From an uncultured Ruminococcus sp. (GTDB taxonomy: Bacteria > Bacillota > Clostridia > Oscillospirales > Acutalibacteraceae): DNA of 64,000 nt. A model generated the notes under the pieces. That model made no database searches. It was not told where the DNA came from and saw only the letters and a program-made list of their open reading frames with translations. Each line of letters begins with the position of its first letter. Position 1 is the stretch's first letter. The stretch is from positions 1-64,000 of the forward strand of contig CACYWT010000004.1 in the NCBI GenBank assembly GCA_902778175.1, in the 5' to 3' direction. Made by a program: the position numbers and the translations under genes. Of the stretch, positions 56,698 through 64,000 are shown in pieces.

Positions 56698-57522
56698 ATG
56701 AAAACACTGTATATTTCCGATCTCGACGGAACGCTGCTGGACAAAAGCGCACGTCTTTCGGACAGAAGCGCGGAAATAATCGGCAGGCTTATCGGGAAAG
56801 GACTGCTTTTCACCATAGCCACCGCGAGAAGTCTTTCCTCGCTGCATATACTGAAAAAGCTTGATATCCGTCTGCCCTGCGTACAGCTCAACGGAGTTCT
56901 GACATACGATTTTTCCAAAGGGGAATATACCGGCTGCATACCGATCATTCCGGAAGATGCGCGCTCGGTCATAAAAGTGCTGAGAAAGCATGACAGAATG
57001 TCGTTCGTATATAAGGCTGATGTGCAGTACGGCATACACGTTGAATTTGAAAGGCTTACGAATGATGTTGAGCGTGAATTTTTCGAGGCGCGCAGGGATC
57101 AGGATTATAAAAGCTTTGAACAAACCGGAGAGATCACAGTTTCGGACGATGACAAGGTGATATATTTCACGATGGTAGACCGCCGCGAAAAGCTCCTGCC
57201 CATTCATGAGGAGCTCGGAGCCATTGCCGGAATACGCTCGACGCTTTACAGCGATAATTATTCCGATATGTATTTTCTTGAGGTTTTCAGCAGCTCTGCG
57301 ACAAAGGCTGCCGGAATGAAGAAAATAAAAGAGCAGCTCGGCGCGGACAGGGTCGTTGCCTTCGGGGACAATCTCAATGATATAGAAATGCTGCAAAGCG
57401 CCGATCTCGGAATAGCGGTAGGCGATGCGGTAGAACAGACAAAGCAGGCAGCCGGCCTGATAATCGGAAACAGCTTTGAGGACGGAGTAGCCCTGTATCT
57501 TGAAAAGGCTTTCAAAGAATAA
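56698..57522 (+). CDS. Cof-type HAD-IIB phosphatase
   Basis: 274 residues. HAD motif I is YISDLDGTLLDKSA at the N-terminus, motif II FTIATARS, the type IIB cap lies in the middle, and motif IV is VAFGDNLNDIEMLQSADLGIAVGDAVEQTK. Members dephosphorylate sugar phosphates, FMN or pyridoxal phosphate; this one cannot be assigned. AAAGGAGG lies 6-7 bases before the ATG, 13 nt after the MORN gene. It ends at a strong terminator. Confidence 0.92.
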   Translation: MKTLYISDLDGTLLDKSARLSDRSAEIIGRLIGKGLLFTIATARSLSSLHILKKLDIRLPCVQLNGVLTYDFSKGEYTGCIPIIPEDARSVIKVLRKHDRMSFVYKADVQYGIHVEFERLTNDVEREFFEARRDQDYKSFEQTGEITVSDDDKVIYFTMVDRREKLLPIHEELGAIAGIRSTLYSDNYSDMYFLEVFSSSATKAAGMKKIKEQLGADRVVAFGDNLNDIEMLQSADLGIAVGDAVEQTKQAAGLIIGNSFEDGVALYLEKAFKE

Positions 57523-57540
57523 AAGTGATAATAAACGAAA

Positions 57541-57584
57541 ACGGGACGCTCCGGCAAAAACGAGCGTCCCGTTATATTTTGTTT
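57541..57584. terminator. Terminator between HAD phosphatase and toxin-antitoxin module 1
   Basis: ACGGGACGCT pairs perfectly with AGCGTCCCGT around a 12-nt loop, followed by TATATTTTGTTTT on the plus strand. The two flanking genes converge on it. Confidence 0.92.
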
Positions 57585-57857
57585 TCAGAAAAGATCGCTG
57601 TGAGTTTCGGTTCTGGTCAGCGTCAATACAAGCTCCTTATTTTTGATCTGATAGATCAAAAGCCAATCGGGTGTTATATGACATTCGCGGCAGTCTGCAT
57701 AATCGCCTCTGAGAGCATGATCCTTATATTTTTCCGGAAGAGATTGTTCATTTACAAGAAGCTCGATTACTCTTTCGAGCAGTCGGATATCATATCCTCG
57801 TTTCACAATACGCTTGAAATCCTTTTTGAATGTTGTTTCATACCTGATCGTCAGCAT
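57585..57857 (-). CDS. YafQ/RelE-type mRNA interferase toxin, module 1
   Basis: 90 residues. YafQ-family toxins cleave mRNA on the ribosome. Visible family features are YETTFKKDFKRIVKRGYDIRLLERVIELL, the basic-acidic core DHALRGDYADCRECHITPDWLLIYQI, and the C-terminal ETHSDLF containing the conserved His. GGAGG lies 6 bases before the ATG, which overlaps the antitoxin by 20 nt. The sequence is clearly related to the toxin of module 3 (59060) but diverged. Confidence 0.92.
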   Translation of the reverse strand: MLTIRYETTFKKDFKRIVKRGYDIRLLERVIELLVNEQSLPEKYKDHALRGDYADCRECHITPDWLLIYQIKNKELVLTLTRTETHSDLF

Positions 57858-58116
57858 ACAGATCCTCCATTAGTTCAGTAACCGAATGGAACTCCCGACT
57901 TAAACCGATATCGTTCCTGACATTTTCTATAGCCCTCCTCGTTTTATCATTAGGAGCCTCGGTCGTCAGCTCAAAAGGTATCCTCTGCTCTCTTACAACA
58001 GTTTTTGCGAAAATATTGAATGCTGCGCTTACCGACAGACCTATCTCCTGACAAAACTTATCAAAAGCGTTCTTTGTAGCTTCGTCCATCCTTATATTAA
58101 CATTAGTCTGTGCCAT
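57838..58116 (-). CDS. RelB/DinJ-type antitoxin, module 1
   Basis: 92 residues. An N-terminal ribbon-helix-helix DNA-binding domain (TNVNIRMDEATKNAFDKFCQEIGLSVSAAFNIFAKTVVREQRIPFEL) marks the RelB/DinJ family; the acidic C-terminus (HSVTELMEDLYADDQV) would wrap the toxin. AGGAGG precedes the ATG. Such antitoxins repress their own operon. The 166-bp element at 58151-58316 separates this gene from its promoter. Confidence 0.92.
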   Translation of the reverse strand: MAQTNVNIRMDEATKNAFDKFCQEIGLSVSAAFNIFAKTVVREQRIPFELTTEAPNDKTRRAIENVRNDIGLSREFHSVTELMEDLYADDQV

Positions 58117-58150
58117 ATAATATTCCTCCTTATTATTTTCTAATGATATT

Positions 58151-58316
58151 TAGCTGATTGTAAAAGTCAAAAATCATCTGTTTATGCGGATTATGGTATT
58201 TACATTTTTACAATTTTCTCCGCTTTTCAAAGCTTTTCGGGATTTGGCGAGGTGTCAGCCCGCCTGCGGCGTGCTGACGACCTTTCGCCGTTCTTTCGCC
58301 GTTTTACAATCGGCTG
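58151..58316. mobile_element. 166-bp MITE-like insertion flanked by a perfect 16-bp direct repeat
   Basis: The 16-mer ATTTTCTAATGATATT occurs at 58135-58150 and again at 58317-58332, immediately outside the ends TAGCTGATTGTAAAA and TTTTACAATCGGCTG, which are inverted repeats with two mismatches. No transposase is encoded. It separates the consensus promoter at 58330-58358 from the antitoxin start. The gap 58117-58429 contains no gene. Confidence 0.72.
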
Positions 58317-58329
58317 ATTTTCTAATGAT

Positions 58330-58358
58330 ATTATATGCTGTTTGTATGCGTTTGTCAA
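58330..58358 (-). promoter_or_regulatory. Promoter of toxin-antitoxin module 1
   Basis: Minus-strand TTGACA (58353-58358), exactly 17 bp, TATAAT (58330-58335). The start point would lie in the right copy of the 16-bp direct repeat, so the 166-bp element is transcribed as part of the leader. Confidence 0.88.
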
Positions 58359-58399
58359 TATACTTCTATTATAATAATAGTAATATTATAGAATAAGCA

Positions 58400-58429
58400 T
58401 AGCATCTCCTGCTTTTATTGGAAGCAGGA
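58400..58429. repeat. Module-border repeat R1
   Basis: GCATCTCCTGCTTTTATTGG and the following AAGCAGGAT form a terminator-like hairpin (CCTGCTT/AAGCAGG) directly after the Doc stop codon. Related 29-nt sequences border the next module at 59030 and 59692. Confidence 0.7.
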
Positions 58430-58816
58430 TCATTTCATTTTAGCTTCAAAGCTCCTGATCCATTTCAGAATATCATCATAGTCAGATTCTCCTGAAGCAA
58501 CAGCAAGTCCGAGAGTTATTACATCATCATTGGAAGGTGAAATATGTATACCGTTCATTTCAAGAAATGTCAGCATCACATACATTCCTATGCGTTTGTT
58601 TCCATCCACAAAGGCATGATTTGAAATAAGTGAAAAGCCAAGCTTTGCAGCCTTTTCTTCTTTTGATGGGAAAAGCTCCTCACCGCCAAAGGTCTGATAT
58701 GCAGATTCGAATGCGCTTTCAAGGAGTCCATAATCTCTGATTCCTGCGTCTCCGCCCGTTTCCTGTGCGATCAACTGATGCAGAAGGAGAATCTTTTCCT
58801 GAGTGAATTTAATCAT
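58430..58816 (-). CDS. doc: Doc-type (Fic fold) toxin, module 2
   Basis: 128 residues. Doc toxins inactivate elongation factor Tu by phosphorylation. The Fic-like signature is HAFVDGNKRIG, with the earlier GLLESAFESAYQTFGGEELFPS typical of the death-on-curing family, and normal length. The ATG overlaps the preceding gene by 4 nt (ATGA). It ends at repeat R1. Confidence 0.92.
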   Translation of the reverse strand: MIKFTQEKILLLHQLIAQETGGDAGIRDYGLLESAFESAYQTFGGEELFPSKEEKAAKLGFSLISNHAFVDGNKRIGMYVMLTFLEMNGIHISPSNDDVITLGLAVASGESDYDDILKWIRSFEAKMK

Positions 58817-58992
58817 TTAGCAAGCTCCTCAAATGCTTTGTGGTACTTTTCTAATATATGTTTAGATACCAGGTCGAATTTCTTATCATCATTATTGCCT
58901 TCCGGTAAACTTAGCAAAAATCTGATAACCTCATCCAAGTATTCCTCGGGAATAATATCAATTATACTCTTTGCATATTCTTTTTCACTCAT
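58813..58992 (-). CDS. Probable antitoxin of the Doc module
   Basis: 59 residues beginning MSEKEYAKSIIDIIPEEYLD, helical and acidic, with LPEGNNDDKKFDLVSKHILEKYHKAFEELAK at the C-terminus. It is not a recognisable Phd; the C-terminal half (a conserved-looking segment before YHKAFEELA) would be expected to contact the Doc active site. The call rests on size, position and 4-nt overlap with doc. The start is set by GGAGG 8 bases upstream. Confidence 0.78.
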   Translation of the reverse strand: MSEKEYAKSIIDIIPEEYLDEVIRFLLSLPEGNNDDKKFDLVSKHILEKYHKAFEELAK

Positions 58993-59029
58993 TGTTAAAA
59001 CCTCCATAAGCTGCTATAATACCAGCATC

Positions 59030-59058
59030 GCATCACCTATGTTTACGGGAAGCAGGAA
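59030..59058. repeat. Module-border repeat R2
   Basis: GCATCACCTATGTTTACGGG followed by AAGCAGGAA, lying directly after the stop of the module 3 toxin. Alignable with R1 (58400) and R3 (59692). Confidence 0.7.
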
Positions 59059-59059
59059 A

Positions 59060-59338
59060 TCAGAACAGGTCACTGTGAGTTCCCGTACGTATAAGCTCCA
59101 ATACCAATCTGTGAGCGTAAACCTTGTATATCAACAGCCAATCAGGCTTGATATGACATTCTCTCATATTTTTATAATTTCTCGACTTCTCAAGAGCATG
59201 ATCTCTGTTTTTATCGGGTAGCGGTTGCTCATTCGCCAGCATAGAAATAACATTTGTCAATTCCTGTATATCACAGCCTCGTTTCACAGCAAGCTTATAG
59301 TCTTTTTTAAACTGTCCTGTGAATTCTATTTTAAGCAT
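59060..59338 (-). CDS. YafQ/RelE-type mRNA interferase toxin, module 3
   Basis: 92 residues. FTGQFKKDYKLAVKRGCDIQELTNVISML, then DHALEKSRNYKNMRECHIKPDWLLIYKV and the ending GTHSDLF mark it as YafQ family, the same type as module 1. The conserved His in the ECHI(K/T)PDW and THSDLF motifs are present. It overlaps its antitoxin by 8 nt. The stop codon abuts border repeat R2. Confidence 0.93.
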   Translation of the reverse strand: MLKIEFTGQFKKDYKLAVKRGCDIQELTNVISMLANEQPLPDKNRDHALEKSRNYKNMRECHIKPDWLLIYKVYAHRLVLELIRTGTHSDLF

Positions 59339-59597
59339 TTAGGGCCTCCATCAGATCATCTACATTGTCAAAGGGACCATATACATCGCTGCCACTTTCA
59401 GCTGATTCCATTGCAGACAGAGTAATATTGTTCGGAACGTCCGCAGTAATTTCAAAGGGTATAGACTTAGTTCTTATCGACTGACGAAGAAAAATGTTGA
59501 CCGCAGTTGATAAATCCATACCAAGCTGGGCAAACAACTCCTGAGCCTGCTTTTTCACCTCGGCATCTATACTGATATTTGCGCTTACCTTTGCCAT
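59331..59597 (-). CDS. RelB/DinJ-type antitoxin, module 3
   Basis: 88 residues. The ribbon-helix-helix start is KVSANISIDAEVKKQAQELFAQLGMDLSTAVNIFLRQSIRTKSIPFEI, typical DinJ, and the C-terminus is acidic (GSDVYGPFDNVDDLMEALNA). AAGGAG precedes the ATG. A consensus promoter lies 32 bases upstream. It probably represses its own transcription, as is usual for the family. Confidence 0.93.
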   Translation of the reverse strand: MAKVSANISIDAEVKKQAQELFAQLGMDLSTAVNIFLRQSIRTKSIPFEITADVPNNITLSAMESAESGSDVYGPFDNVDDLMEALNA

Positions 59598-59628
59598 AAT
59601 ATCAACTCCTTATGATTTCTTTATAGAT

Positions 59629-59657
59629 ATTATACTTCATAACAAGTGAAATGTCAA
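59629..59657 (-). promoter_or_regulatory. Promoter of toxin-antitoxin module 3
   Basis: Minus-strand TTGACA (59652-59657), 17-bp spacer, TATAAT (59629-59634). Confidence 0.88.
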
Positions 59658-59691
59658 TATGATATAAGTATATTATAATCATAAAATGCAC

Positions 59692-59721
59692 ATACTATCT
59701 CCTATGTTTACGGGACGCATG
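59692..59721. repeat. Module-border repeat R3
   Basis: CTATCTCCTATGTTTACGGG followed by ACGCATGAT, upstream of the module 3 promoter. It aligns with R1 and R2; spacing between copies is about 630 and 660 bases. Confidence 0.65.
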
Positions 59722-59766
59722 ATTTTTGTTCTTCGTTCGTATTATATCATTTTTTCATCTGAACTG

Positions 59767-60189
59767 TCAATCTGTAGATATTTCAAATCCTGTCATTTCG
59801 TAGAAGCGATCTAACTCGTCTTGCAGGTATCTTTCGTACAATTCTTTATGTTCAGCAACCCATATACTCGTATCAAGGTAGTTGTGAAAAGACTCAATAT
59901 CCTCGCGAGGATTAAGCAAGAGGAGGCTTTCGTGTTCTTCTCTTTCGTCGTCGGACGCTTGTTCAGGGTCGTACTCTCTTATTCTGTCTGAAATAGACTC
60001 TTCTATTTCGTCTATACCAATTTCAAACATTATCCGAACAAGGTTGTTTACATTCACATCATTTCCGAAAGCATACTTACAATTTTCAATCAAATAACCG
60101 AAACTATACTTACAGTCTTTGAGCAAAGAAACATCGTAGTAGCCACAGTTCAAAAGCTCTGCAAGGAGTTCTTCTCTGTAATCAACCAT
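59767..60189 (-). CDS. Hypothetical acidic protein
   Basis: 140 residues, soluble and strongly acidic, no family recognised. It begins MVDYREELLAELLNCGYYDV, has an Asp/Glu-rich middle (YDPEQASDDEREEHESLLLL) and ends in DELDRFYEMTGFEISTD. AAAGGTG precedes the ATG. It is the third gene of a small unit behind the AbrB-type regulator, 13 nt after the 139-residue protein gene, so probably co-transcribed. Small size and acidity would suit an inhibitor or immunity protein, but nothing proves this. Confidence 0.65.
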   Translation of the reverse strand: MVDYREELLAELLNCGYYDVSLLKDCKYSFGYLIENCKYAFGNDVNVNNLVRIMFEIGIDEIEESISDRIREYDPEQASDDEREEHESLLLLNPREDIESFHNYLDTSIWVAEHKELYERYLQDELDRFYEMTGFEISTD

Positions 60190-60202
60190 ACTTTCACACC
60201 TT

Positions 60203-60622
60203 TCATATAAAGAATTTACTCATATTTGCATAGAAGCGACCATACGAAAATTCAGAAAGAAGGCAACCTGCGTTATCATTTACTCGATCCCATATTTCCT
60301 TTATTTTTTCATCATATTCTTCTTCGTATGGTTTGAGATTCTGGTGAAGACAATATGCAGTCCATAAGCATCTGAGGTGTTCAAAACCAAATATCAAATC
60401 ATATTCAAAGTCATCACTGTTTTTAGCAAAATTTAAAATAAAGTGGTATTCTCTATTATCTTCTCCATAAACAGGCAGTTTGCTTGTATGATAAAGGCTT
60501 TTGCTAAGACTTTGCAGTTTAATGTATGCTTGTGCATCATTTTCTGTAAAGCAAACACATTTGGGATCAAACGGATCACTCGAATAGCTTGATCCGTATT
60601 CAACAAGGAACATTTCTCGCAC
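60203..60622 (-). CDS. Hypothetical protein next to AbrB regulator
   Basis: 139 residues, no family recognised. It opens MREMFLVEYGSSYSSDPFDPK and contains FTENDAQAYIKLQSLSKS and FGFEHLRCLWTAYCLHQNL, with many aromatic residues. Translation seems to start at GTG 60622, since AGGAG lies 9 bases upstream, too far from the later ATG 60613. The binding site lies across the end of the AbrB-type gene, so the two are coupled. Confidence 0.65.
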   Translation of the reverse strand: MREMFLVEYGSSYSSDPFDPKCVCFTENDAQAYIKLQSLSKSLYHTSKLPVYGEDNREYHFILNFAKNSDDFEYDLIFGFEHLRCLWTAYCLHQNLKPYEEEYDEKIKEIWDRVNDNAGCLLSEFSYGRFYANMSKFFI

Positions 60623-60623
60623 A

Positions 60624-60914
60624 CTAATCAGCTCCTTTCTTCTCGATTAAAGAAAGAGCTTCTTTCATCTTTGCTATGAGTTCGTTACGAAGCTTAAAGC
60701 TTAATTCGTCTTCATCTCCTATATATGAAATAGCCTTTCTGATGACAGCTGATACGTTTTCTGCGTACTCGATTTTCTTAAAAATAACGCTGTCGTCCTC
60801 GATATACAGCTCCATAGGCTGTCCGTCTTCTATGTGTAGCTTGTTTCTGATCTCTCTCGGAATAACAATTCTTCCGAGATCATCAACTCTTCTTACAACT
60901 CCTGTCGCTCTCAT
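60624..60914 (-). CDS. AbrB/SpoVT-type swapped-hairpin transcription regulator
   Basis: 96 residues. The N-terminal SpoVT/AbrB domain reads RATGVVRRVDDLGRIVIPREIRNKLHIEDGQPMELYIEDDSVIFKK, the standard AbrB signature. The C-terminal part (about 50-96) is helical and resembles the coiled multimerisation region found in the group. GGAGG lies 7 bases before the ATG at 60914. It is likely a transition-state-type or element-encoded regulator of the adjacent genes. Confidence 0.9.
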   Translation of the reverse strand: MRATGVVRRVDDLGRIVIPREIRNKLHIEDGQPMELYIEDDSVIFKKIEYAENVSAVIRKAISYIGDEDELSFKLRNELIAKMKEALSLIEKKGAD

Positions 60915-60925
60915 ATTGCACCTCC

Positions 60926-61183
60926 TTACGCATAGCAATAATGCGACAAAAACTCTTTGTCGATTATTACAGCATCTTCGTCTTCTGTGAAGTATTTCTT
61001 TCCGAGCAGTCCGTAGAGTTTCCTGAGGTGTGCATTGAGGCTACTAAGTCCGCACCATACTCCGCAACTGTTTCCGTCAACGCTTATGTAATACAGAATA
61101 TCTCCGAGCAGCCAATACTGCCATGTGCAGGAGAAAGCAATCAGCTTTCCGTTTTTCTTGATTCTTATAACATCAGATTTCAT
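60926..61183 (-). CDS. Hypothetical small protein
   Basis: 85 residues beginning MKSDVIRIKKNGKLIAFSC, with aromatic/cysteine-rich WQYWLLGDILYYISVDGNSCGVWCGL and a basic KLYGLLGKKYF segment. No family recognised and no clear membrane helix. ATG 61183 is preferred over an earlier in-frame start because AGGAG lies 8 bases upstream. It ends 11 nt before the AbrB-type gene. Confidence 0.62.
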   Translation of the reverse strand: MKSDVIRIKKNGKLIAFSCTWQYWLLGDILYYISVDGNSCGVWCGLSSLNAHLRKLYGLLGKKYFTEDEDAVIIDKEFLSHYCYA

Positions 61184-61194
61184 ACAAATCACTC

Positions 61195-61833
61195 CTAATC
61201 TTTTTTGTTATTTTTCGAGCCTACTTTGTAAGTCTTGTCTTTTTTCTTTCCGCAGCCTTTAGTATATTCATCAATCCATATTGTTTTTCCGTTCTTGTAG
61301 TGTCGATAATGACCTCTTACGGAGAACATACCTTCAGGTTTGCTATGAGATCCTTTTGTAACAATTCGTGGAGCATTGCCACTTCTTTTGAGTATGTAAG
61401 TGCAGCTTATCTGCTTATTCTTTTTGGTCGGTTTTCTGGTGTTATCATTCTTCTTGTGAGAGATATTCTTGTGTTCAATTTCGTTATTCTTAATAGTATC
61501 ATCTCCAAAAGCAATCAATGCCATAGTGGAAGAATAAACAGTTGCTACAGACATTACATTTTCTGTTCCATACTTTGTAGTGTTTCTGAGAACCTTATAC
61601 ATCCCTGACAAAAGGAGTTCTATTACTATTTTCCCTTCGCTTCTACCGTTGTGATTTATGCCAAACGACAGTTTGTTTCCTTCTCTTACAGCTGTTATTA
61701 TGTACTTCGTTTCAGGCACTTCAATCTTTACAGCCTTTATAGGGCAGATGCCGAGACGAACAAGATCCTTATGTTCGTCTCTCCATCTGAGGATAAAGTC
61801 TATGTCCGAAGTTGAAAGAATTATTTTATCCAT
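61195..61833 (-). CDS. Hypothetical element-associated protein
   Basis: 212 residues. The N-terminal half (MDKIILSTSDIDFILRWRDEH ... VMSVATVYSSTMALIAFGD) is globular. It is followed by a Lys/Asn-rich linker and a compact C-terminal motif, GMFSVRGHYRHYKNGKTIWIDEY, then a basic tail. I associate this C-terminal motif with conserved proteins of Clostridia phages and conjugative elements (from memory, function unknown). ATG 61833 follows AAGGA by 8 bases and overlaps the preceding gene by 8 nt. Confidence 0.65.
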   Translation of the reverse strand: MDKIILSTSDIDFILRWRDEHKDLVRLGICPIKAVKIEVPETKYIITAVREGNKLSFGINHNGRSEGKIVIELLLSGMYKVLRNTTKYGTENVMSVATVYSSTMALIAFGDDTIKNNEIEHKNISHKKNDNTRKPTKKNKQISCTYILKRSGNAPRIVTKGSHSKPEGMFSVRGHYRHYKNGKTIWIDEYTKGCGKKKDKTYKVGSKNNKKD

Positions 61834-62095
61834 TATCAATCATCCTTCCACATTTATCATTCCAATACGGATCATAGCCAAATGCAATGTCGTACATTTT
61901 TCTTCCGGTTATTTGGTCTGTGAATACATCTACCATTACATCAAACCGATATCCATTGTCATCGAGCCAAGTGAGGATGGTATCAAAAGCAAGTTTTGTA
62001 GCGTACACATAAAGATCTGACTCGTGATGGTCCATTTCAGATACAGGATATCCTGCGTCGATTAGTCGTTGCATTATGCTTCTGTTATCGCTCAT
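61826..62095 (-). CDS. Hypothetical small protein
   Basis: 89 residues beginning MSDNRSIMQRLIDAGYPVSEMDHHESDLYVY, acidic and aromatic, with TWLDDNGYRFDVMVDVFTDQITGRKMYDIAFGYDPYW. No family recognised. AAAGGAGG precedes the ATG. Overlaps the following gene by 8 nt, so the pair should be translated together. Confidence 0.62.
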   Translation of the reverse strand: MSDNRSIMQRLIDAGYPVSEMDHHESDLYVYATKLAFDTILTWLDDNGYRFDVMVDVFTDQITGRKMYDIAFGYDPYWNDKCGRMIDNG

Positions 62096-62125
62096 TTGAA
62101 TGCACCTCCTTTCCTGTGAGCGATA

Positions 62126-62656
62126 TTATGCAGTCTTCTCTACAGATTCATCGTGCCAATGCAAGCCTCTCTTCTTATACAGTGGAATCCAATGTTCGTC
62201 GTAGAAGGAATAGCCTGCTCCGTCAATGCCGAAGTAGTAGCCGAACTCTTCTGACTCATAGACTCTGAATCCACATTCTGACATTATGCGTATGCCGTCT
62301 TCGTGTTCAAGCCACCAATCATCGCATCCATCTCCAAAAGACCACATCGTTCCCCACATAGGAAGGGCGTCGTATCTTTTGACCTCAAAATCATCAGCCT
62401 GTGCTTCAACAGTTTTTCCGCTGTCAAGCTCGATAAGGTAAACTATGTCATCGTCTTCGTCGTTAATGCAAACGATCTCTCCGTACTCAGAGTCTTCGTA
62501 GTAATACACTCTGTCGTTTTTGCACGGTGTAGTAACCTCAGTCCAATCACAAGGATCTGCTGCCATCAGCTTCTGTATCATTGCCTGCGGAATGGCGTTC
62601 ATTTCTCTTACCCATTCCTGTGCTGCCTCTCTGATAGTCATTCCATCTCTAATCAT
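62126..62656 (-). CDS. Hypothetical acidic protein
   Basis: 176 residues beginning MIRDGMTIREAAQEWVREMN, acidic (IVCINDEDDDIVYLIELDSG) and unusually rich in Trp and Tyr (MWGTMWSFGDGCDDWWLEHEDG, FGYYFGIDGAGYSFYDEHW). The short beta-like segment DRVYYYEDSEYGEIVCI could be an SH3-like fold. No family assigned. Overlaps the preceding gene by 4 nt (62653-62656). Confidence 0.62.
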   Translation of the reverse strand: MIRDGMTIREAAQEWVREMNAIPQAMIQKLMAADPCDWTEVTTPCKNDRVYYYEDSEYGEIVCINDEDDDIVYLIELDSGKTVEAQADDFEVKRYDALPMWGTMWSFGDGCDDWWLEHEDGIRIMSECGFRVYESEEFGYYFGIDGAGYSFYDEHWIPLYKKRGLHWHDESVEKTA

Positions 62657-62958
62657 TTTACTGATACCTCCATTTCCTTAAACAGGTTAAATCTGTCACA
62701 CGCTGTATCGAAAGCGTTGGCTTTCGGGCTGTATGCTGCGTAGAAGATTGACTCTCTTGCAGTCCAAACGGACTTCGCTTCAAGCGTAAACAGCTTTCTT
62801 CTGATCTTTCTGCGTTTGATCTCAGACTTAACCTCACGAACAGCGTCCGGTAGAACCTTCATGATCTGAGCAAGTTCCTCTCCATCAAACTTGTCGAGAT
62901 TTTCTACAGTAAAGCCTTTGCTGTCGAGCTGTACCGTGAATTCGATTATGTTTCTCAT
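62653..62958 (-). CDS. Hypothetical small protein
   Basis: 101 residues beginning MRNIIEFTVQLDSKGFTVENL, followed by a helical basic segment (REVKSEIKRRKIRRKLFTLEAKSVWTARESIFY). No family recognised. Two ATG codons lie close together; 62958 is preferred as GGAGG is 8 bases upstream, against 2 for the first. Overlaps the next gene by 4 nt. Confidence 0.62.
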   Translation of the reverse strand: MRNIIEFTVQLDSKGFTVENLDKFDGEELAQIMKVLPDAVREVKSEIKRRKIRRKLFTLEAKSVWTARESIFYAAYSPKANAFDTACDRFNLFKEMEVSVK

Positions 62959-63036
62959 TGACATTACCTCCTTGAATTTAAGCCTCCAACTACTTCGGAT
63001 ATGTTGGCGTAGCTTTACAGCCCGTGAGGGCTGCCG

Positions 63037-63213
63037 TCAGCTTTTGGCTTTGCTGTCTTTTACGATGCAAAAGTTCTTTGCGATGGTGTACAATGCAGTA
63101 TCTATATCCGTCGAGCCTCTGTAAACCAAATTGTTATACAAGCTTTTGACCCATAAATCAGAAGCTATAAGATCACGAGTTCTTTTCGTTTCTGCTTCGG
63201 TAAGTTTTCTCAT
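63037..63213 (-). CDS. Hypothetical 58-residue protein under a palindromic operator
   Basis: Starts MRKLTEAETKRTRDLIASDL and ends IVKDSKAKS; helical, basic, unrecognised. GGGAGGAGG precedes the ATG by a normal distance. The palindrome TTACAGTTTGGTAA (63232-63245) lies just before this binding site. Short, but the strong binding site supports translation. Confidence 0.6.
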   Translation of the reverse strand: MRKLTEAETKRTRDLIASDLWVKSLYNNLVYRGSTDIDTALYTIAKNFCIVKDSKAKS

Positions 63214-63231
63214 ATTACCAGCCTCCTCCCC

Positions 63232-63245
63232 TTACAGTTTGGTAA
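63232..63245. promoter_or_regulatory. Operator-like palindrome, copy 2
   Basis: TTAC(A)-GTTT-GGTAA, one mismatch from the perfect palindrome at 63565-63578. It lies between the stop of the gene at 63266 and the ribosome binding site of the gene starting at 63213. Confidence 0.65.
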
Positions 63246-63265
63246 CTATCGAGCATAAAAAAACA

Positions 63266-63544
63266 TTATAGTTTGATGTGTCCATAAAGATCGGACTCGC
63301 TTGTGTAAAGAAATCGACCATCTCGGAGAACCTTTGAAAACCTGTAGGTTATTTCTGTGTTGAGATTATCAAAGTGGCTCGTTGTTTTGCTTCCGAACTT
63401 ACTTGTACTCTCTGTAAGTCTTACTCTGATGCTCTTTCTGTTGATCCTTACAATCTCGCCCTTATATGTGGTGCATTGAATCAAAAGACCAATGCAGGTT
63501 CCTCTGTAAGCCTCAACTGCCATACCGATTTGTAAATCCGTCAT
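63266..63544 (-). CDS. Hypothetical small beta-rich protein
   Basis: 92 residues beginning MTDLQIGMAVEAYRGTCIGLLIQ. The alternating pattern (YKGEIVRINRKSIRVRLTESTSKFGSKTTSHF ... ITYRFSKVL) suggests a small beta barrel, possibly nucleic-acid binding, but no family is recognised. ATG 63544 is preferred over a GTG three codons earlier, since AAAGG lies 8 bases upstream. It has a good promoter with a palindromic operator just downstream of the start point. Confidence 0.65.
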   Translation of the reverse strand: MTDLQIGMAVEAYRGTCIGLLIQCTTYKGEIVRINRKSIRVRLTESTSKFGSKTTSHFDNLNTEITYRFSKVLRDGRFLYTSESDLYGHIKL

Positions 63545-63564
63545 TTCGATCACCTTTCCTTAGC

Positions 63565-63623
63565 TTACCGTTTGGTAATTTATTTATTGATTATATCTTA
63601 CTACATAGGAATTCGTTTTGCAA
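63565..63623 (-). promoter_or_regulatory. Promoter with palindromic operator, copy 1
   Basis: Minus-strand TTGCAA (63618-63623), 17-bp spacer, TAAGAT (63595-63600). Downstream at 63565-63578 is the perfect palindrome TTACC-GTTT-GGTAA, where a bound repressor would block elongation or open complex formation. The same motif recurs at 63232. Confidence 0.7.
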
Positions 63624-63763
63624 GCGTTTTTGACAAGTTTTTTGAAAAATTTTTTAGAGTTTCTATTTTAGTTTATTAGCTTGTTGAGCATTGATTTGTG
63701 CTTACCAAGGTATATATATTGATTTCGAGGTAAAACGCCGTTGTAGGCTCTTGTAGCCTACTT

Positions 63764-63806
63764 AAAAAACAAAAGCAGGGCAAGGATTTTGAGATCCATT
63801 GCCCTG
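63764..63806 (-). terminator. Intrinsic terminator of the gene at the window edge
   Basis: On the minus strand CAGGGCAA pairs with TTGCCCTG around a 15-nt loop and is followed by CTTTTGTTTTTT. The remaining gap (63624-63763) shows only a small GTAGGCT/AGCCTAC hairpin. Confidence 0.87.
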
Positions 63807-63811
63807 TTAAA

Positions 63812-64000
63812 TCAGACTGTTTCTTCAATTATTCGTATAGCATCCTCTTCGCCGATAGGTGTAATCGTGTTCACTCCACCATCCCACTTGACATAGTTCA
63901 CGATGAAGTATCTACCATCGTCATCACGATATACTTCGTAGAACATATCCTTGCTCTCGTCAGAGTGGCAGATTGCGTCAGCCTTGCTTGTATCATACTT
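63812..64000 (-). CDS. Hypothetical protein, 3' part only
   Basis: The last 62 codons of a gene that starts beyond the right edge. The visible sequence, from KYDTSKADAICHSDESKDMF to IRIIEETV, contains EVYRDDDGRYFIVNYVKWDGGVNTITPIGEEDA, a pattern like short beta-hairpin proteins of mobile elements. Acidic, no family assigned. It ends at a clear intrinsic terminator. Confidence 0.65.
   Translation of the reverse strand, partial: KYDTSKADAICHSDESKDMFYEVYRDDDGRYFIVNYVKWDGGVNTITPIGEEDAIRIIEETV

Follow-up and report, generated by a model that had tools for sequence, protein, structure and literature searches.

Toxin–antitoxin cassettes bounded by phage-type half-sites: a probable accretion at the 3' end of queA in an uncultured Ruminococcus

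The stretch of interest is a 64,000-nucleotide window from the genome of an uncultured Ruminococcus sp. (assembly GCA_902778175.1, contig CACYWT010000004.1, positions 1–64,000). Near its end lie three toxin–antitoxin (TA) operons in tandem, accompanied by three related repeats, R1–R3. Our favoured explanation, to which we give a probability of about 0.78, is that these operons are integrase-less TA micro-elements: units bounded by phage attachment (att) half-sites, accreted beside the gene queA, and probably moved by queA-specific phages. The explanation draws on sequence comparisons of (i) the composite make-up of the repeats, (ii) matching queA tails, (iii) a prophage with a large serine recombinase (LSR), (iv) a half-site common to phage ends and three TA families, and (v) the variable order of the cassettes and their spread between species. 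From these we infer that cassettes enter and leave through the LSRs of queA-specific phages, and by which route they travel.

TA operons, composite repeats and a prophage at queA

The genome of the window (2.69 Mb) is called G000 below, and its contig C4; it belongs to a set of 64 genus genomes (G-numbers), with one genome per species. The TA genes are as follows.

57585–57857, minus strand: yafQ1, YafQ-type toxin of cassette 1 (PF15738, 2.4e-35; TIGR00053, above cut-off)
57838–58116, minus strand: relB1, RelB/DinJ antitoxin of cassette 1 (PF04221, 3.1e-18; TIGR02384)
58430–58816, minus strand: fic/doc toxin of cassette 2 (PF02661, 2e-17; TIGR01550, death-on-curing)
58813–59007, minus strand: partner gene of fic, its product 64 aa long and a presumed antitoxin (without a match in Pfam or NCBIfam)
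59060–59338, minus strand: yafQ3, YafQ-type toxin of cassette 3 (PF15738, 3.3e-33; RelE_StbE, above cut-off)
59331–59597, minus strand: relB3, RelB antitoxin of cassette 3 (PF04221, 3.5e-13; TIGR02384)

The operons occupy 57585–58116 (RelB-YafQ), 58430–59007 (partner-Fic) and 59060–59597 (RelB-YafQ), all on the minus strand. Open reading frames (ORFs), Pfam and NCBIfam thus confirm the RelB/YafQ, Doc-type and RelB/YafQ modules that an earlier, sequence-only reading of the window had proposed. Modules 1 and 3 are predicted type II TA systems, in which a gene for a RelB-family antitoxin overlaps one for a YafQ/RelE-family toxin. Module 2 encodes a Fic toxin of the Doc family; its 64-aa partner is without a family match, yet is linked to fic in relatives. 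Relatives of the 64-aa partner, 88–95% identical, lie behind queA in G004, G023 and G035, with fic intact in the first two. YafQ3 scores 80.5 bits against TIGR00053, under that model's cut-off of 87.25. At 59% identity, YafQ1 and YafQ3 are diverged paralogues rather than the product of a recent duplication, as the sequence-only reading held.

The three repeats, and the halves into which each can be divided, are:

58387–58429: R1, 43-nt repeat copy (reference copy)
59015–59057: R2, 43-nt repeat copy (74% identical to R1)
59680–59722: R3, 43-nt repeat copy (67% identical to R1)
58386–58406, minus strand: R1 tail half, a displaced queA 3' end, GAT GCT ATG CTT ATT CTA TAA, or GDAMLIL-stop after GGN (tail and leader as at the queA end of G047)
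58407–58430, minus strand: R1 half-site, the 3' end of the fic cassette
59014–59034, minus strand: R2 tail half, a displaced queA 3' end (GDAMLVL-stop after GGN)
59035–59058, minus strand: R2 half-site, directly past the yafQ3 stop codon
59679–59699, minus strand: R3 tail half, a displaced queA 3' end (GDSMCIL-stop after GGN; resembles G028)
59700–59723, minus strand: R3 half-site, the end of the prophage farther from queA (in viral contig L314, a half-site of this kind comes after a homologue of window gene 59767–60189)

R1 and R2 are 628 nt apart, R2 and R3 665 nt; R1 begins 0 bases past the fic stop codon and R2 2 bases past that of yafQ3. The proposal of a related repeat at the module borders holds for R1 and R2, which lie between modules and mark precise borders, while R3 separates module 3 from a prophage. 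On the far side of module 1 there is no repeat in G000; the nearest relative, G047, has one there. As to their nature, the repeats are not one simple motif: they form a family of 43-nt copies, each a composite of a conserved recombinase half-site of ~24 nt (cassette end: ATCCTGCKTCCCGTAARCATMGGN), joined at a GA dinucleotide to a displaced queA 3' end reading GD(A/S)MxxL-stop. By this comparison, each R combines two things: the half-site closing the unit to its left, as transcription runs, and the queA end that predates the entry of that unit. The tail half of R3 would then be the tail that queA had before the prophage entered; in G028, GDSMCIL-stop is the present queA tail, ahead of a RelB-YafQ cassette.

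The best 19-nt core of the repeats has 2 matches in the window at ≤3 mismatches, against 0.01 expected. At ≤2 mismatches, the same 2 sites are the only ones in the 2.69-Mb genome (reversed control pattern, 0). Across the genus, the bare 19-nt motif occurs at 13 places in 10 of the 64 genomes, versus 3 places for the reversed control: 2 in G000, 2 at queA junctions (G028 and G052), and 9 others that the site profile misses. These nine, of which two score E 0.36 and 1.6 and seven give no hit up to E 2, are taken as chance. A broader comparison covered 18 junctions chosen for a recognisable site, namely 16 at TA cassette ends, R1 and R2 among them, and two at phage ends, R3 and L314. Between different gene families, the half-sites are 68% identical (105 pairs), compared with 26% for bases 31–54 upstream. 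Tails in the queA frame, G(D/N).., are present at 17 of the 18 junctions (R1 counted after a one-base register correction); the second junction of locus L266 is one base short.

In G000, queA itself lies at C4:115299–116342 and has its own end, GDAMFIGSGMFDK-stop. It is 56 kb from the array because an LSR prophage sits between queA and R3. This prophage, of ~55 kb, carries portal, major head, tape-measure and lysin genes, and its LSR gene (C4:113503–115245; PF00239, PF07508 and PF13408, i.e., resolvase, recombinase and zinc ribbon) ends 53 bp from queA. With a three-domain LSR at one junction, structural genes, and a junction at the other end, the element has the make-up of a temperate LSR phage integrated at queA. 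The sequence-only reading had described a cassette organisation without an obvious integrase; a recombinase, presumed to act on the cassettes, is in fact at hand.

The nearest relative indicates where the R1 tail comes from. Its gene order is HAD hydrolase, fic-partner remnant, R-like site, yafQ1-relB1, queA. The last codons of its queA (GGG GAT GCT ATG CTT ATT CTA TAA; GDAMLIL-stop), together with the leader that follows, equal the second half of R1; in G000, this G047-type queA tail and leader are located in R1, 57 kb from queA. Among HAD flanks fetched from 57 genomes (some of <500 bases), TA genes are present in G047 alone.

When the two ends of the G000 prophage are set side by side, they form a dyad centred on GA, with 16 of 22 positions paired (none of 20,000 shuffles as good). 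The centre is exactly the GA at which the junctions switch partners. A GA-centred dyad is the expected form of a serine-recombinase attP. We had also considered whether the half-site might be an inverted native tail of queA; this was dropped, as the dyad of the phage attP accounts for the likeness.

Phages and cassettes at queA in other genomes

Relatives of the G000 LSR occur at the same gene. In the viral contigs L223, L224 and L225, LSR relatives directly adjoin queA (L224 and L225 are 99.7% alike); in a fourth, L226, the LSR relative runs off the contig. The phage record MT835491 has a short queA stub at its LSR and a displaced queA tail at the opposite end (read by eye, the stub being too short for the queA search), and G055 retains short pieces of a related LSR, 69–72% identical, beside queA. 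L315 and L316, with LSRs at 46% identity, contain an uninterrupted attP-like site (TATCGTAAACATAGGGGAYGCCATGTT), in which the dyad recurs with 16 of 22 pairs in L316 (0 of 20,000 shuffles) and 13 of 22 in L315 (49 of 20,000). In L314, homologues of window genes 62126–62656, 61195–61839 and 59767–60189 are followed by ATCCTGCGTCCCGTAAGCATCGGG and a queA tail. The L314 phage half-site is identical, at 24 of 24 positions, to the end of the Fic cassette in locus L299, from a different bacterial species. At both of the phage ends observed at queA, those of G000 and L314, the genes are of the h140 type, without a TA operon of the present kind.

Matches to queA were found in 53 of the 64 genus genomes, and the 3' flanks of 51 were compared (49 plus G000 and G047; the truncated queA genes of G039 and G062 were excluded, and some contigs run out less than 300 bases on). 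In 17 of the 51, queA is followed immediately by RelB-YafQ or Fic-type genes, whether intact or decayed; those of G000 are now parted from queA by the prophage. The sequence-only reading had suggested searching relatives for the motif at other TA cassettes, and the junction does border them: the half-site is recognised in 11 of the 17 TA flanks, 400–713 bp on, always behind a TA operon or its remains. A scan of the flanks for the site gave 15 hits, comprising 10 TA borders, 3 minus-strand arms of long queA tails and 2 elsewhere (reversed control, 2); a further scan added the eleventh TA border. G001 carries two cassettes, a decayed Fic followed by RelB-YafQ, and in G052 and G010 a displaced queA end immediately precedes the gene that now follows. 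YafQ has 31 matches in 22 of the 64 genomes, 13 of them at queA arrays. At the 16 YafQ loci away from queA (covering 17 of the 18 others; L207 is cut 21 bases behind yafQ), neither a recognised site nor queA was found.

TA genes at queA extend beyond the genus, and arrays occur in other species. Among the best 80 YafQ loci from a collection of 84,980 species, each examined with a 3.5-kb flank, queA lies upstream on the same strand in 13. Among the record names are Roseburia sp., Anaerocaecibacter muris and Eubacterium sp.; L290 and L292 are G037 and G052 of the genus set. In 9 of the 13, tgt is on the other side, placing the TA genes between queA and tgt (Pfam confirms tgt in L271). Four arrays show the variety of arrangements:

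L289: queA, HigB/HigA-like operon, R, RelB-YafQ, R, partner-Fic (decayed), tgt
L299: queA, partner-Fic, R, RelB-YafQ, R, tgt
L266: queA, RelB-YafQ, R, HigB/HigA-like operon, R, tgt
L239: queA, ParE-like gene, queA tail, HigB/HigA-like operon, YafQ

The HigB/HigA-like operons are presumably such on the strength of Gp49/DUF891 and HTH_3 matches. The queA genes of L266, L289 and L299 are 74–76% identical to that of G000 and could belong to the same or another genus. In L234 and L244, a displaced queA tail lies between YafQ and tgt (by eye), with half-sites of different sequence. Behind queA, the same operons are found alone, in pairs and differently ordered, and many of their borders carry the junction, which bears out the earlier suggestion of modular gain by recombination.

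Several cassettes are more alike between species than their surroundings. Between G000 and G047, the relB1-yafQ1 module is 97.2% identical as DNA, versus 87.4% for whole queA and 82.7% for the HAD gene. Against the ~350 nt of neighbouring queA, cassette identities are 94.1 vs 77.6% (G001/G005), 91.5 vs 79.0% (G010/G052), 91.0 vs 78.1% (G028/G010) and 97.2 vs 88.8% (G000/G047); overall, cassette identity exceeds that of queA by >8 points, and by up to 16, in 10 of 60 pairs. Moreover, the same cassette is second in the G001 array and first in that of G005. That closely related cassettes are more alike than the adjoining queA, and occupy differing positions, supports movement between species.

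Two side observations concern these flanks. The cassettes of G024 (L150) and G009 (L177) are chimeric, with relB nearer to relB1 (70% and 68%) and yafQ nearer to yafQ3 (90%), suggesting recombination within TA operons. Behind queA genes with the tails GDSMAII, GDCMAIL, GDSMAVL and GDCMAIL (G058, L136; G061, L142; G063, L147; G059, L174, respectively) lie similar ORFs of 186–193 aa without a known family (MSGINFKALKNNIIYVIKE... and alike), which may be either other cargo or an old neighbour.

Flanks, promoters and other features of the window

Further features around the array are listed below; each promoter is a consensus match only.

56698–57522, plus strand: HAD hydrolase, the chromosomal flank on the array's other side (matches in 62 of 64 genus genomes, a few of them just distant paralogues or fragments; also flanks the array in G047)
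58330–58358, minus strand: sigma-70-like promoter of cassette 1 (TTGACA-17-TATAAT, 12/12)
59629–59657, minus strand: sigma-70-like promoter of cassette 3 (12/12)
59741–59770, minus strand: sigma-70-like promoter (12/12) in the prophage end, directed across R3 into the cassettes
59767–64000, minus strand: distal end of the prophage, hypothetical genes and an AbrB/MazE-type antitoxin gene (60624–60938); the prophage runs on to C4:~115.25 kb

Each RelB-YafQ cassette is therefore preceded by a candidate promoter of its own. In cassette 1, an insertion of ~165 bp with inverted ends (58145–58325) lies between relB1 and this promoter, bounded by a 16-bp direct repeat, ATTTTCTAATGATATT, at 58135–58150 and 58317–58332. 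It has 8 matches in the genome, itself included, at 82–100% identity; cassette 1 of G047 is without it, and it looks like a miniature inverted-repeat transposable element (MITE-type). A strong terminator-like inverted repeat (57526–57587) stands between the convergent HAD and yafQ1 genes. Beyond yafQ1, G000 appears by eye to have undergone a small deletion at TCAG relative to G047, taking out the R site and the fic-partner remnant. An Rfam search of 54–64 kb gave zero matches, and a tRNA scan across the window found none.

The outward promoter-like sequence of the prophage end (59741–59770) is situated ~20 nt inside the phage half-site, and a similar one is seen by eye near the half-site of L314. 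A promoter in this position would read over the junction into the cassettes, like the Pc promoter of integrons. PHROGs places the family of the AbrB/MazE-type protein (60624–60938) with the moron genes, under TA antitoxins. A reverse transcriptase gene lies in the part of the prophage outside the window (C4:74204–75610, or L101:18205–19611; PHROG 1423, with RVT_1 under the Pfam cut-off), possibly part of a diversity-generating retroelement; such retroelements are reported in Faecalibacterium phages (PMC5883640).

Explanations weighed, and known counterparts

According to the favoured explanation, attB would consist of the last queA codons, which the LSR would cut at the GA of GGN-GA-YGC. A cassette would be one TA operon, beginning with a replacement queA 3' end (GDxMxIL-stop type) and ending with a phage half-site of ~24 nt. 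Upon entry, queA would keep its upstream half, gain the first codons of the unit as its new end, and stay in frame; the old queA end would come to lie beyond the unit, and R would be that unit's half-site plus this displaced end. Repeated entry at queA would stack cassettes, the newest beside the gene. In G000, RelB1-YafQ1 would have entered first, then the Fic cassette, then RelB3-YafQ3, and finally the ~55-kb prophage.

Since the cassettes are without a recombinase, one must come from outside, and queA-specific LSR phages would be the evident source. The route we favour is accretion and co-excision: a phage would integrate beside a cassette, and its queA-side junction would later recombine with one located a cassette further out. 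Phage and cassette would travel together, and exact excision in the next host would leave the cassette behind. In a lysogen like G000, recombination of the queA-side junction with R3 would release the phage alone, with R2 the phage plus cassette 3, and with R1 the phage plus cassettes 3 and 2. TA addiction would account for the persistence of TA operons as cargo.

A number of results weigh against this explanation. The half-site is unrecognised behind the TA genes in 6 of the 17 flanks (G035, G037, G030, G036, G049 and G026), and decayed junctions in G021, G024 and G009 were excluded from the 18-junction set. The strict site pattern matches 1 of 300 family genomes, G000 itself, and gave no match in a viral scan; the half-site pattern has 4 matches in 394 order genomes, 3 of them at unrelated places away from queA. 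More distant queA-TA loci have the same layout but not the same half-site sequence. Scans of viral sequences with the Fic partner (0 loci) and YafQ3 (10 loci, ≤57% identical) revealed no phage carrying these cassettes, and no excised cassette circle was seen. A close LSR is present in G000 alone among the 64 genus genomes; the other LSR matches in the genus (E ≤ 1e-30) are 31–44% identical, most spanning only the N-terminal ~230 residues. In 41 of the 60 pairs the cassette is less similar than queA; these are mostly different cassette types, as expected for old paralogues, yet they lend transfer no support. Finally, a copy of cassette 3 (88–90% protein identity) lies away from queA in G021. 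This copy (L214, G021:C152, 2160–2791) sits behind an ABC-F-like gene (by eye), with part of a queA-type tail; entry at a secondary site or a rearrangement is possible.

Three other explanations have to be set against these data. Each cassette could be the stump of a whole prophage or LSR element at queA of which only the end TA operon is left, the array being a graveyard kept by addiction and its small units immobile. We consider this unlikely, while granting that the half-sites do belong to queA phages, that decayed cassettes are common (G001, G021, G035, G049), and that cis-mobilizable elements (CIMEs) are described as decay products of larger elements (PMC5704250). Several species show the compact layout, whether with RelB-YafQ, Fic or HigB/HigA-like operons, so stumps would require many parallel deletions to identical endpoints; the phage ends of G000 and L314 are without such a TA operon, and the viral scans gave no carrier. 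The cassette that is second in G001 and first in G005, at 94.1% identity against 77.6% for queA, indicates that small units spread after being made. A much less probable alternative is that cassettes spread solely via homologous recombination between the queA regions of different strains, with R as a passive scar. Flanking queA sequence is indeed common to the cassettes, and the relB/yafQ combinations of G024 and G009 appear recombined. Such exchange creates no new R junctions, however, and leaves the change of queA tail with the cassette unexplained; nor do the adjacent ~350 nt of queA share the high identity of the cassette.

We give almost no credence to the remaining alternative, that R1–R3 are ordinary terminators or operators of the TA operons. 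In its favour, R1 has a plus-strand hairpin that resembles a terminator, and most of its shuffles fold less well than R1 itself (z about -2.5, as DNA). For R2 and R3 there is no clear gain in folding over shuffled sequence (z -0.02 to 0.56, DNA; R3 minus strand as RNA, z -1.07), and because clear folding, as DNA or RNA, is confined to R1, both an attC-type hairpin and a shared terminator are rejected. Furthermore, the site follows three unrelated TA families as well as phage ends, and its second half encodes the queA C-terminus. The sequence-only reading would have given way had the motif been an ordinary terminator found after many unrelated genes; instead it occurs nowhere else in the genome at ≤2 mismatches and goes unrecognised at the 16 YafQ loci away from queA, with L207 cut as noted above.

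The favoured explanation is best read as CIME-like accretion at a serine-recombinase site, integron-like in its working, with single TA operons as units. CIMEs lack an integrase and are bounded by att sites; accretion of integrative and conjugative elements (ICEs) or integrative and mobilizable elements (IMEs) places them in tandem at one specific target, and they can move with an incoming element (PMC5704250). Similarly, each unit in the window, as in the relatives examined, is a TA operon alone, with no recombinase gene; an att half-site is common to the cassettes, the G000 prophage and L314, and the attP-like sites have a GA-centred dyad. The present case differs in that one TA operon of ~0.6 kb makes up the whole unit, the partner would be a serine-recombinase phage, the target is queA, and one half-site terminates units of three TA families. 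In Bacillus subtilis, the recombination units of phages and an ICE can reportedly substitute for each other (PMC6957869).

The families involved are those of known type II TA systems: RelB/DinJ-YafQ, Doc/Fic and HigB-HigA-like matches cover the toxins and most antitoxins, the 64-aa Fic partner excepted. Integron cassettes, among them the TA cassettes of superintegrons and the clusters of attC sites lacking integron-integrases (CALINs), are likewise one-operon units with one 3' half-site each, stacked with polarity at a fixed site. The queA array would work alike, with one-operon TA cassettes, a half-site at the 3' end and polar stacking. It differs from integrons in three respects: (i) queA adjoins a serine-family recombinase, and no tyrosine integrase was seen on an island that was not scanned for every family; (ii) R2 and R3 do not fold as attC sites would; and (iii) a coding gene's end serves as the fixed site. 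In the staphylococcal cassette chromosome (SCC) and the Enterococcus cassette chromosome, serine recombinases act at the 3' end of rlmH and generate tandem att junctions; these units measure tens of kb and carry their own ccr genes. The queA locus resembles them in that a serine recombinase is found where a housekeeping gene has its 3' end. Against NCBIfam CcrB, the G000 LSR scores 168 bits, far under the cut-off of 900, and its target is queA, not rlmH. Among phage records, its best relative is the LSR of Faecalibacterium phage FP_Brigit (Brigitvirus; 56% over 98%), a record that ends at gene borders without its attachment site. Att repeats could reportedly be found only for those Faecalibacterium prophages that have tyrosine integrases (PMC5883640).

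In a literature search, with subscription journals mostly outside its reach, no description of the queA TA-cassette array was found and no listed title named queA as a target. A wider proposition, on which we would place even odds, is that gut Clostridia keep an integron counterpart driven by phages. The capture site would be the 3' end of queA, in many cases ahead of tgt. There, the serine recombinases of temperate queA phages would insert, stack and exchange ~0.6-kb TA cassettes with one phage half-site each, and would spread them from species to species; the cassettes would be minimal parasites of phage integration. If true, this would offer a testable answer to the open question of how solitary chromosomal TA operons move and accumulate: the units would need no integrase, just one phage half-site and a spare target-gene end. 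It would define very small integrase-less mobile units, tie the spread of TA systems to temperate phages rather than to plasmids or integrons, and mark queA-tgt out as a hotspot of integration.

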